Shown here piece after piece: positions 25,412 through 59,433 of a DNA stretch of 64,000 nt (its first letter is position 1; each line of letters starts with the position of its first letter). The position numbers and the translations under genes are program-made. The notes below the pieces were generated by a model. That model saw nothing but the letters and a program-made list of their open reading frames with translations. It was not told the origin of the DNA and ran no database searches. Origin of the DNA: Pseudomonas marginalis (lineage in GTDB: Bacteria; Pseudomonadota; Gammaproteobacteria; Pseudomonadales; Pseudomonadaceae); assembly GCF_024169655.1 (NCBI RefSeq), contig NZ_JALJWV010000001.1, positions 315,001-379,000 on the forward strand, given 5' to 3'.

Positions 25412-25512
25412 CTGTAGGAGCGAGCTTGCTCGCGAAAATCGTCAACGATAACGCGGATATTCGGGTTTACGCGGTGCTCTCGGGTTTTTCGCGAGCAAGC
25501 TCGCTCCTACAG
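25412..25512. repeat. REPIN (GTAGGAGCGAGC type) between priA and argS
   Basis: Inverted arms CTGTAGGAGCGAGCTTGCTC and complement, 101 bases overall. Ends two bases from the priA stop codon, so it may serve as the priA transcript end. Nearly the same element occurs inside the LolA-like gene near 58.9 kb. Confidence 0.9.
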
Positions 25513-56022: not shown

Positions 56023-58353
56023 TCATGAGGCATGCTTCTGGCGGCCGGCCCAGGGCGCCAGCATAAAGCTGAAGGCCAGGCCCAGGCTGACCGACAGGCC
56101 GAAATTACTCACCGCAGGCGTACTCGACACCGCCAGCAGGCCGAACGACAACCACGTCGTCAGCGCCGCCAGCAGCGTCCCCAAAAGGCTCACCGCCGGG
56201 CCGCCGATCTGCTCACGCATCAGGATCGCGTAGTCGACACTGATGGCGGTGACCAGCAGCAGGCCGAACAGGCTGAACAGCGTCAGCGGCTGGCCCAGCC
56301 AACCGAAGCTGGCCAGGCTGCACAGCGCGGCCAGCAACGGCAGGGCGACAATGCGCAGTGCGCCGCCAAAGCCGAAGGGCACGATCAGCAACAGCACGAT
56401 CAGCCCGCAGGACATCAGTTTCAATTCAGCCGCGCTGATCTGCGTGGCGGCGAACACCCGGTTCAAATCCCCCAGGCGATCCACCAGTTGCACTCCCGGC
56501 AGATCCACGGCCTGCACCTGCAGCAGCGCCGGGTTGTTCAAGCCTTGCAGGCTGACCATGGCCGCTACGCCGCCGTCGACCGGGCCCAGCCACAGCGTGC
56601 GCCAGGGTTCGCCCAGCGGCCCGAGCAGCGCGGCGTCGATGTCTTCGGTGGGCAGCGCTTGCAGTTGAGCGACTTCGGCTTGCAGCGCGCTGACGGGCAC
56701 GCCGAGGTCGAGCAGCGGCTGCCAGTGCGCGGGAAGTGCATTCAGTGCCTCGCGCAGCCGTTGTTGCTCGGCGGGCAGGTTGACCAGTTGATTGAGCGCC
56801 AGATAACCCTGGAGCTTGTCCATATTCACCAACTGCTCCAGGCGCTGGCCCAGGGCGGCCTGGCGTTCCAGCAACTGCTGCTGATTGTCGGCGCGCACTA
56901 GGAAGAACTGGCTGGTGGGTTGGAACCCGGTGATCCGCGCCACGGCCTGGGCTTCCTGTAGCAATTGCGGCGGGGCGCCGATCCACTGGCGCAGATCGTT
57001 TTTACTGTTCAACTGCCACAAGCCGCCGGCACAAAACAGCAGCACCCACACCAGCAGCACTGCGCTCGGCACGCGTTTGATCAACCCGCTACGCATCAGC
57101 CACAGGCTTTCGGCGATGCGCAGCGGCCATTGCGCCGGGCGCAGTTCGACGCCGTTGAGCAGCGCTGGCAGCAGGCATACGGCGGACAGGTACGCGCCGA
57201 CCAGGCCTGCGGCGGAGAACACGGCGATCTGGGTCAGCGCCGGGAACGGCGTCCAGGCCAGCGCCAGGTAGCCGATGCAACTGGTCGCCAGGCTCAGGCT
57301 CAGGCCCGGCAGGGTCAGGCGCAACGCCGGCCAACTGCGCCACGGCTGCAGGCTCCAGCTTTTCGACAAGTAGTGCAGCGGGTAATCCACCGCCACGCCG
57401 ATCAGGCTGGAGCCGAGCACCAGCGTCATCACATGCATATGCCCGAACAGCGCCACACAGGCCACCGCGCCGAACAGCATGCCCACCAGCACCGGCACGA
57501 AGGCCAGCAGCACGCGCCAGCGCCGGAACGCGAGGAGCAACAGCAGCAGAATGCCGACGGTCGCGCCGCCGCCGACCCAGGTGATTTCGCGGGTGGCTTG
57601 CTGTTGCCCGGCGGCGGCGTAGAGCAAACCGCTGGCCGCGAGCAGTTGCGCGCCGTGCTCGGCGGCCTGGGCGCGGCTGGCCTGGAGCAAATCGGCGACT
57701 TGCAGCGGCAGTTTCATATCGAAGGCATTGCCGGTGGTGCGCGCGCGCAGCATCACCCAGCTCTTGCCGTCGGCATCGGCGACCAACGTGCCGCTGCCGA
57801 TATCCAATTGCACCGCGCCGCGCTGCGGCTGGCTGTTCTGAATGCGCCCGGTCAGGCCCAGCCAGTCGTCCTGGCTCGGCACCAGGCTGAACCCGGTGAA
57901 CGGGTCGAACAGCGCTTGCACACGCTGCTGGATGAACGCGTCGGGGTGGTCGATCAGTTGTTCGCGGTCCTTGGCCGCGAGCATCGACAAGCGCCCGCGC
58001 AACAATTGCTCGCGCAGCGCCGGCAGGTCGGCTTGCAGGTTCCATTGGACTTTTTCAAACAGGCCGCTGGCTTGCCAGCGCTCACCCAATTGCTCGGCTA
58101 CGTTGACCGCTTGCTGGCGGTCTGCGTGCCCCACCAGAACCAGCATTTCGCGGTTCAGCGGTTCCTGCATGCGCTGTTCGGCTTGCAGTTCGAGGGCGTC
58201 CGGCGTGCTACCCGGCACCAGTTCCATCAGGTTGGCCGACAACGGCGCGCCATGGCGCCATTGCCAGCCGGCCAGGGCCAGCACGGCCACCAGCAGGATC
58301 AGGAACAGGCGCGGCAATAAACGCTCACTGGGCAAAGTCGTGTTGCTCCGCAT
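56023..58353 (-). CDS. MMPL/RND-type exporter of the APE cluster
   Basis: The 776-residue inner-membrane transporter has a two-fold repeat of six helices: helix 1 at about residues 13-28, a large periplasmic domain, five clustered helices near 250-420, and the same again in the second half. Typical stretches are SSLIGVAVDYPLHYLSKS and LVTAISVDYAILMREQIGG, the paired helix-4 motifs. Probably moves the polyene-lipid across the inner membrane, handing over to the LolA-like carrier. The start overlaps the LolA-like gene by 29 bases. Confidence 0.9.
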   Translation of the reverse strand: MRSNTTLPSERLLPRLFLILLVAVLALAGWQWRHGAPLSANLMELVPGSTPDALELQAEQRMQEPLNREMLVLVGHADRQQAVNVAEQLGERWQASGLFEKVQWNLQADLPALREQLLRGRLSMLAAKDREQLIDHPDAFIQQRVQALFDPFTGFSLVPSQDDWLGLTGRIQNSQPQRGAVQLDIGSGTLVADADGKSWVMLRARTTGNAFDMKLPLQVADLLQASRAQAAEHGAQLLAASGLLYAAAGQQQATREITWVGGGATVGILLLLLLAFRRWRVLLAFVPVLVGMLFGAVACVALFGHMHVMTLVLGSSLIGVAVDYPLHYLSKSWSLQPWRSWPALRLTLPGLSLSLATSCIGYLALAWTPFPALTQIAVFSAAGLVGAYLSAVCLLPALLNGVELRPAQWPLRIAESLWLMRSGLIKRVPSAVLLVWVLLFCAGGLWQLNSKNDLRQWIGAPPQLLQEAQAVARITGFQPTSQFFLVRADNQQQLLERQAALGQRLEQLVNMDKLQGYLALNQLVNLPAEQQRLREALNALPAHWQPLLDLGVPVSALQAEVAQLQALPTEDIDAALLGPLGEPWRTLWLGPVDGGVAAMVSLQGLNNPALLQVQAVDLPGVQLVDRLGDLNRVFAATQISAAELKLMSCGLIVLLLIVPFGFGGALRIVALPLLAALCSLASFGWLGQPLTLFSLFGLLLVTAISVDYAILMREQIGGPAVSLLGTLLAALTTWLSFGLLAVSSTPAVSNFGLSVSLGLAFSFMLAPWAGRQKHAS

Positions 58354-59011
58354 CGCTCAGGGGAAGGTCGGCGCTGCTGTCTTGCATGCGCAGCACGGTG
58401 CTGTCGCCCTGGGTTTCCAGCAGTTCGATGGTGTGGACCAGCGTGCCGCCGTCGATATTGATCTGATTGAACACTTGCTTGAGCAGCAGCGAGCGCGGGG
58501 TCAGCGTCAGCTTCCACTGCTCGGCTTCACCCTGTAGTTGCAGGTCGAAGTCACGCTGCAAGCCGCTGCTGTCGCCCTGGAGCACGGCGAGGAACAGGCG
58601 GTTCTGTTCGGCCCCGGCGCTCTTGTTCGGCAGCGTTTGCCAGCCATTGGCATCCCGCCGCGCAATGCCTTGGGCGCTGATGCGGTAATCCTGTTGCAGT
58701 GGGGTTTTGAGCAGCCACAGCAGGCCGTGGTCCTTGGCCAGGACGAAGGTGCCTTTGCTGACCAAGGGTTGCGGCAGGGCGCGCAGGTGTTTTTCCTGGA
58801 TAAAGCTGCCGTGGATCACGCTGGGTTTGGCCAACTGATCGCTGAGTTGCTGCAGGTCGAAGGCCTGGGCCGCCGCCGAAAAACCAAACAACGCGAACAC
58901 TGTAGGAGCGAGCTTGCTCGCGAAAAACCGGAGGGCACCACGGGGTGTCAGGTGACCAGCGTTATCGTTGACGATCTTCGCGAGCAAGCTCGCTCCTACA
59001 GGGCTCAGCAT
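58325..59011 (-). CDS. LolA-like periplasmic carrier with REPIN-derived N-terminus
   Basis: The 228-residue protein is related to outer-membrane lipoprotein carrier LolA: FDLQQLSDQLAKPSVIHGSFIQEKHL, then KGTFVLAKDHGLLWLLKTPL. The only usable ATG, 59011 (ATGCTGA, overlapping the thioesterase stop), places the first ~37 residues ([13 protein letters not shown] to FFASKLAPT) inside a 102-base REPIN. The hydrophobic core VFALFGFSAAAQA and signal cleavage site AQA/F lie just beyond it. REPIN length is a multiple of three, so the frame stays open. Expected to shuttle the pigment or lipid conjugate to the outer membrane. Confidence 0.85.
   Translation of the reverse strand: MLSPVGASLLAKIVNDNAGHLTPRGALRFFASKLAPTVFALFGFSAAAQAFDLQQLSDQLAKPSVIHGSFIQEKHLRALPQPLVSKGTFVLAKDHGLLWLLKTPLQQDYRISAQGIARRDANGWQTLPNKSAGAEQNRLFLAVLQGDSSGLQRDFDLQLQGEAEQWKLTLTPRSLLLKQVFNQINIDGGTLVHTIELLETQGDSTVLRMQDSSADLPLSDAEQHDFAQ
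58900..59001. repeat. REPIN (GTAGGAGCGAGC type) inside the LolA-like gene
   Basis: Inverted arms CTGTAGGAGCGAGCTTGCTC and complement, 102 bases overall, in coding sequence. The inner part shares ATCGTCAACGATAACGC with the REPIN at 25412 (read in the matching direction). It lies three bases past the thioesterase stop codon. Confidence 0.92.
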
Positions 59012-59433
59012 TTCAGGGCCTTTTCGACGGCGTGGGTGAAGACGGTGGGTGAGGCCAGTTGCATCTCGCGGCTGGCGATGTCGACCGCCACTTGCACCGT
59101 GCTGGCGCGGGTCAGGCGTTCGCCGCTGGCGCGGTCGGTGATCAGGTAGTTGACCTTCAAACGGTTCTCCCATTCCACCAGGCTGGCGCGCACGTTGATC
59201 GTCTGGCCGAAGGTAGCGCCGCGCACATAGCGCAGTTGCAGGTCGATCACCGGCCAGGCGTAGCCGGATTCGAGCATCGCCGTGTAGTTGTGGCCGATCT
59301 TGTCGAGCAAGGCGCAGCGGGCGATTTCCAGGTACTTCACGTAGTGCCCGTGCCAGACCACGTTCATGGTATCGATGTCGAAAAACGGCACGAGGATTTC
59401 AGTGTCGCAATGCAGCACGCCCTGACTACGCAT
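59005..59433 (-). CDS. 4HBT-type acyl-thioesterase of the APE cluster
   Basis: The 142-residue hotdog thioesterase has the YbgC-like motif FFDIDTMNVVWHGHYVKYLEIAR, whose Asp and His are catalytic in the family. Expected to release or edit acyl chains from the ACP, the role of ApeK in described clusters. The start overlaps the ammonia-lyase gene by eight bases. Confidence 0.87.
   Translation of the reverse strand: MRSQGVLHCDTEILVPFFDIDTMNVVWHGHYVKYLEIARCALLDKIGHNYTAMLESGYAWPVIDLQLRYVRGATFGQTINVRASLVEWENRLKVNYLITDRASGERLTRASTVQVAVDIASREMQLASPTVFTHAVEKALKC

Follow-up and report, generated by a model that had tools for sequence, protein, structure and literature searches.

Repeat-derived insertions in frame at the signal-peptide start of a lolA-like gene in Pseudomonas

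REPs have been described as extragenic elements, and in SBW25 just 14 16-mers of 1,067 occurrences overlap genes, according to the part of that account available (Bertels and Rainey, 2011; PMC3116915). GTAG/CGTC REPs have also been found inside genes of several species, N-termini included, and for most of the N-terminal REPs of P. putida, C. koseri, and S. maltophilia the available text favours a reading as non-coding control elements (Di Nocera et al., 2013; PMC3733652). In Yersinia, a YPAL/RU-2 element lies in the signal peptide of YPO1552 (Delihas, 2007; PMC2759123), and in Rickettsia, palindromic elements (RPEs) occur in frame within 19 reading frames, the gmk product being active (Ogata et al., 2000, via PMC2229807). 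As far as the accessible portions of these sources extend, intragenic REPs, Rickettsia RPEs, and one signal peptide built from a repeat are therefore already known. RPE segments stay in Rickettsia proteins, whereas signal-peptide cleavage would be expected to take away the segment encoded in the lolA-like gene considered here. Autotransporters carry extended, unusually long N-terminal signal peptides; the likeness to the extension in LolA is one of length, and the latter is repeat-derived and freely variable.

The element at lolA resembles the REPINs and REP doublets described for Pseudomonas, in that inverted REP halves enclose a loop, the unit is about 100 bp long and dispersed, and the own genome has a Y1 transposase gene; unlike extragenic REPs, the repeats at lolA appear to be coding, and they occur in many species at one gene (compare the available text of PMC3116915). 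With RPEs they share a palindromic structure and a reading in frame within proteins, many RPEs being conserved (PMC2229807, in part). YPO1552, as presented in the accessible part of PMC2759123, is one putative exported protein, whereas lolA is a conserved gene that can be compared across many species, with several families of repeat, with orthologues that have no REPIN, and by statistics of the frame. The N-terminal REPs of PMC3733652 were, in the portion available, mostly read as non-coding, whereas the frame evidence at lolA favours coding. A search of open papers found no report of REPINs at the lolA signal peptide; what is new is the recurrence of repeats at one signal peptide with the frame kept.

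The lolA-like gene and its REPIN

The window, that is, the whole stretch of 64,000 nucleotides of Pseudomonas marginalis DNA that was analysed, carries a LolA-like periplasmic carrier gene (58325..59011, reverse strand, as are all genes and gene features below; 228 codons, ATG 59011-59009) in what a first-pass annotation labelled an APE-type operon. Its product matches the Pfam families LolA_3 (E 9.3e-9) and LolA (E 3e-7), each passing the cut-off. Upstream lies a thioesterase gene (4HBT in Pfam; 59005..59433), which served as the fixed landmark for all comparisons, and downstream an MMPL-type gene, likewise named by Pfam (56023..58353), overlaps the end of lolA. The start codon of lolA and the stop codon of the thioesterase gene (TGA 59007-59005) overlap in the sequence ATGCTGA at 59005..59011.

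Directly behind this junction, a REPIN of exactly 102 nt occupies 58900..59001 in frame; it begins at base 2 of codon 4 and ends at base 1 of codon 38, so that residues 4 and 38 are each encoded by it in part. The 5′ REP half on the coding strand (58977..59001) has the core GCGAGC-TT-GCTCGC, and the 3′ half (58900..58924) encodes ASKLAPT directly before the hydrophobic core VFALFGF, which together with the A-Q-A cleavage site makes up residues 38-50 (58862..58900) and is followed by the mature Phe51 at 58861. The inverted arms (58895-58924 and 58977-59006) are 30 nt long and 93% complementary. Inverted REP palindromes around a loop and many dispersed genomic copies identify the element as a REPIN; the extragenic placement usual for REPINs, a property that is not required for identity, is lacking, as the element sits within the lolA reading frame. 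Length, position, and frame are thus as the first-pass annotation had given them, and its statement that frame and AQA site survive also holds: the reading is open from ATG 59011 through the REPIN to AQA and the FDLQ that follows. Initiation at the native ATG would be expected to yield repeat-encoded peptides such as IVNDNAGHLTPR in REPIN-bearing strains. A GTG at the core had been taken for the only internal start candidate, but a TTG inside the REPIN (58985..58987) is a further possible start, with a repeat-supplied AGGAG (58997-58993) five bases 5′ of it; this TTG is absent from some orthologues. A second type-A REPIN, the type found in lolA, is present in the window at about 25412-25512 (C1:340412-340512).

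In the own genome, the 102-nt element (59001-58900) has 92 matches at E ≤ 0.001, a figure that covers both orientations of a near-palindrome with 40 of 96 candidates scored, and the exact REP core has 97 copies (48 and 49 by strand). There are two Y1_Tnp matches, one of which (C1:5881816-5882139, RAYT-like) is flanked by REPIN matches at 5881632 and 5882287. A search of plasmids with a REPIN peptide gave two places, with no annotated feature at either. At C1:3479186-3479904, about six REPIN-like units stand in tandem with a spacing of about 124 bp, and five of them have the exact core GCCGGC.

Apart from the lolA copy, the 49 top matches of the REPIN peptide in the own genome include 4 with a stop codon, in a search that favours open copies, and among 19 copies from sites picked for long open frames, 18 are open in the lolA frame and 18 have a length of 102 nt. 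An open reading frame in the REPIN was not accepted as proof of coding, because most of the own-genome copies seen are likewise open and 102 nt long, and part of the kept frame therefore comes free with the element. As the insertion of an open 102-nt type-A REPIN easily keeps the frame, the case for coding rests on flank lengths, other repeat families, orientations, and tandem copies; by sequence comparison, it is a frame conserved from species to species, rather than one open copy, that exceeds chance. From 116 own-genome matches, counted in both orientations, 20 REPIN sites with long open frames were selected for six-frame listing, and eight of the listed reading frames went through a Pfam scan; no second REPIN-bearing signal peptide was found among them. 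The scan identified a GMC oxidoreductase and an ammonium transporter, the other six frames being without a Pfam match. The true start of the ammonium transporter probably lies behind its REPIN, and the GMC oxidoreductase (L190; C1:2042100-2047100) takes a C-terminal tail of about 20 residues and its stop codon from a REPIN at about 2525-2632.

Frame, repeat types, and inheritance among orthologues

Orthologous loci came from a genus search, which gave a match in 254 of 298 genomes and from which the 150 loci listed were analysed, and from a scan of the genome contigs of relatives, of which the best 80 of 535 were kept. One locus with no thioesterase match (L214) was dropped before the counts. 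Of the 229 that remained, 35 had the same sequence as another over the region compared, and their removal left 194 distinct loci. The sampling is skewed to close relatives and, in the set of 80, also to REPIN-bearing ones; because that set was ranked on its likeness to a query with a REPIN, the genus-search loci are the fairer guide to prevalence, and of these 82 of 149 are repeat-bearing, 66 are short, and 1 is a duplication.

A start codon that overlaps the thioesterase stop and is in frame with mature LolA, with no stop between, is present in 193 of the 194 distinct loci. The overlap takes the form ATGA in 175 of these and ATGNTGA in 18, with a GTG start in L167 and L248. Between the thioesterase stop and the mature Phe lie 53 to 635 nt, in 40 different lengths, 39 of which are 2 mod 3. 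Only L148 departs from this frame: a short start region, with the thioesterase end and the lolA start, is duplicated there in tandem, giving two start sites with the second in frame with LolA; this locus was excluded from the analyses of start candidates and SD-like sequences, signal peptide and mature protein, dN/dS, and flanks. Repeat-derived insertions are found in 125 of the distinct loci, and 68 are REPIN-free with a short, normal signal peptide. Lengths match clean insertion, as 65 + 102 = 167 (17 loci) and 53 + 102 = 155 (7 loci), among 135 loci. The 5′ flanks of type-A elements (15, 18, 21, 24, 30, and 123 nt; 81 recognised arms) fall in one phase, as do the 3′ flanks (40, 43, 46, 52, and 163 nt; 75 recognised arms).

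The first-pass annotation had suggested that the REPIN serves as an over-long signal-peptide n-region, a reading that would lose ground if REPIN-free orthologues began at a different conserved codon. All 68 REPIN-free loci begin at the same codon as the REPIN-bearing ones and not at another, which supports the suggestion. The first-pass annotation covered a single strain; the REPIN is real in the source strain, but it is not confined to it, being recurrent in many Pseudomonas species.

Among the 125 repeat-bearing loci, type A accounts for 96, a decayed element (L163) included, and the type-A loop is inverted in two more (L072 and L139); the remainder comprise types B (11), C, which is B reversed (3), D (4), E (3), and A2 (2), and four singletons. 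Two REP families are thereby found in both orientations at lolA. For A, B, C, and D, whole elements were confirmed as dispersed repeats in the genomes that bear them, and for the type of L151 it is mainly the arms that recur. Similar REP arms are common to A, D, E, A2, and some singletons, so that some of the types are related; no similarity to the A loop is seen in those of A2, D, and E. Tandem in-frame units number five in L018 (P. proteolytica) and four in L020 (P. brenneri). In L020 (1360-1880), every tandem REPIN unit brings an ATG and an SD-like stretch of its own, which would allow translation to begin at several places.

When traced on two trees built from the thioesterase and mature LolA, the trait repeat versus short requires 22 changes, and 100 label shuffles on the first tree require at least 46 (mean 56). 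Judged from these trees, for which short genes, uneven support, and possible recombination have to be borne in mind, the insertion is inherited, yet it has been gained or lost many times. Of the 98 arms on each side, 17 at the 5′ end and 23 at the 3′ end did not match the arm-core pattern; of the 81 recognised 5′ arms, 66 are fully paired over three variable positions, with five alternative cores that differ by double changes, and the 3′ arm, which adjoins the hydrophobic core, is more uniform. The core GCCGGC is abundant (217 and 415 copies) in only two of 20 genomes, and in these two lolA bears GCCGGC, which hints at exchange between lolA and the genomic pool. A simple rule by which lolA follows the REP fashion of its genome is contradicted by three genomes rich in GGGGGC, namely the own genome, G188, and G168 (450, 973, and 1072 copies), in which the lolA core is nevertheless GCGAGC. 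In G158, lolA has a related imperfect core and the genome holds no GCCGGC copies.

Translation, tolerance, and rival explanations

With repeats, the total signal peptide measures 37 to 213 residues, as against 18 to 28 without. The mature protein is 178 residues long in 193 of 193 loci, A-x-A is present in 124/125 repeat-bearing and 67/68 short loci, and the mean hydropathy of the core is 2.62 in both groups; K/R is missing within the 8 residues before the core in 4/193 loci, and A-x-A in 2/193. Judged by charge, hydropathy, and A-x-A motif only, the features of a Sec signal peptide are thus in place. Between related pairs, the median dN/dS of mature LolA is 0.118 with repeats and 0.133 without. 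The pathway looks functional from these comparisons, and no sign of damage from the REPIN or of an insertion peculiar to the source strain is seen. The kept frame, the shared start codon, and an intact, constrained mature LolA together indicate that the insertion is probably translated and then removed by signal peptidase.

We consider it likely that the thioesterase/lolA junction is a recurrent landing site for REPINs, and that in-frame copies are translated from the native start, only lengthen the n-region, and are tolerated. Because the lolA start codon stands just before the thioesterase stop, DNA directly behind that stop is not intergenic and would fall between start and hydrophobic core; through this overlap, the space behind one gene, where such elements usually land, would become the signal-peptide n-region of the gene that follows. 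In-frame copies would survive because the n-region tolerates both length and sequence and because the whole extension is expected to be cut off, which would leave mature LolA unchanged and make the insertion nearly neutral over the long term. It could then be inherited, gained or lost, duplicated, and flipped, with REP halves that sometimes match the REP types of the host.

One alternative, that the REPIN is a non-coding hairpin between genes and LolA starts downstream of it, accords with the argument made for REPs at annotated N-termini in the available part of Di Nocera et al. (2013; PMC3733652). Any start behind the REPIN would need to fall 11-22 codons before the mature Phe, and an in-frame ATG, GTG, or TTG does occur there in 97 of the 125 repeat-bearing loci, but 28 have none, an SD-like tetramer precedes such a candidate in only 5/125, and a downstream start leaves unexplained why 193 of 194 loci are in frame with the upstream one; we regard a downstream start as quite improbable. 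Two observations count against initiation at the native start in repeat-bearing loci: an SD-like tetramer is found there in 95/125 of them but in 62/68 short loci (30 and 6 are without it), and the start region (-18 to +39) is predicted to fold somewhat more strongly with repeats (mean -15.0 kcal/mol) than in short loci (-12.2 kcal/mol), which could lower initiation. A further possibility, that export suffers from the insertion and the source strain's pathway is decaying, was raised by the first-pass annotation and draws on the unusual length of the n-region and on nothing else; mature LolA is intact throughout, the 125 repeat-bearing loci included, purifying selection on it is similar whether or not a repeat is present, and P. 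veronii (97% identical, the best-scoring among the relatives listed) has a REPIN at the same place, so that decay is hardly credible.

More can be said for an adaptive extension, in which the hairpin or the long n-region tunes the translation or export of LolA as in the extended signal peptides of autotransporters. The extension is retained in many species, and the pairing of the REP stem is kept through the double changes noted above. Stem pairing is, however, also expected if REP halves are refreshed from the genome, and relatives carry other repeats, a decayed one, or none. The loop comparison drew on 61 loops of 92 nt (59 distinct) out of 98 loci, reduced to 58 when the inverted L139 loop was later removed: pN/pS is 0.57 for the 59 loops and 0.54 for the 58 distinct type-A loops, against 0.66 for 18 own-genome control REPINs in the same frame, and the interval of the difference from a bootstrap over codons (-0.49 to 0.20) includes zero, the controls coming partly from sites chosen for open frames. 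Strong domestication at the level of the peptide was rejected on this weak difference, and we judge an adaptive role unlikely. The first-pass suggestion that the repeat may have been domesticated accordingly fares less well than its reading as an n-region: no greater constraint is measurable on the loop peptide than on those of other own-genome REPINs read in the same frame, other lineages have other repeats or none, and the REPIN in LolA looks tolerated rather than domesticated.

The reading as a tolerated, translated landing site bears on how such repeats are viewed in general. The lolA locus provides strong comparative evidence against the non-coding view, with repeats that recur at a single gene across many species and are read in its frame. 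With total signal peptides of 18 to 213 residues, it is also a natural experiment on the weak constraint upon the n-region. It is tentatively possible, though doubtful as a general rule, that n-regions at operon junctions with overlapping stop and start codons are a safe harbour for bacterial REPs, the peptide being removed by signal peptidase in what would amount to an excision at the protein level. If so, selfish repeats could live inside genes, spread there in tandem, and swap REP halves at no cost, and selfish DNA could persist within a gene for the proposed reason that the part it encodes is discarded during export.
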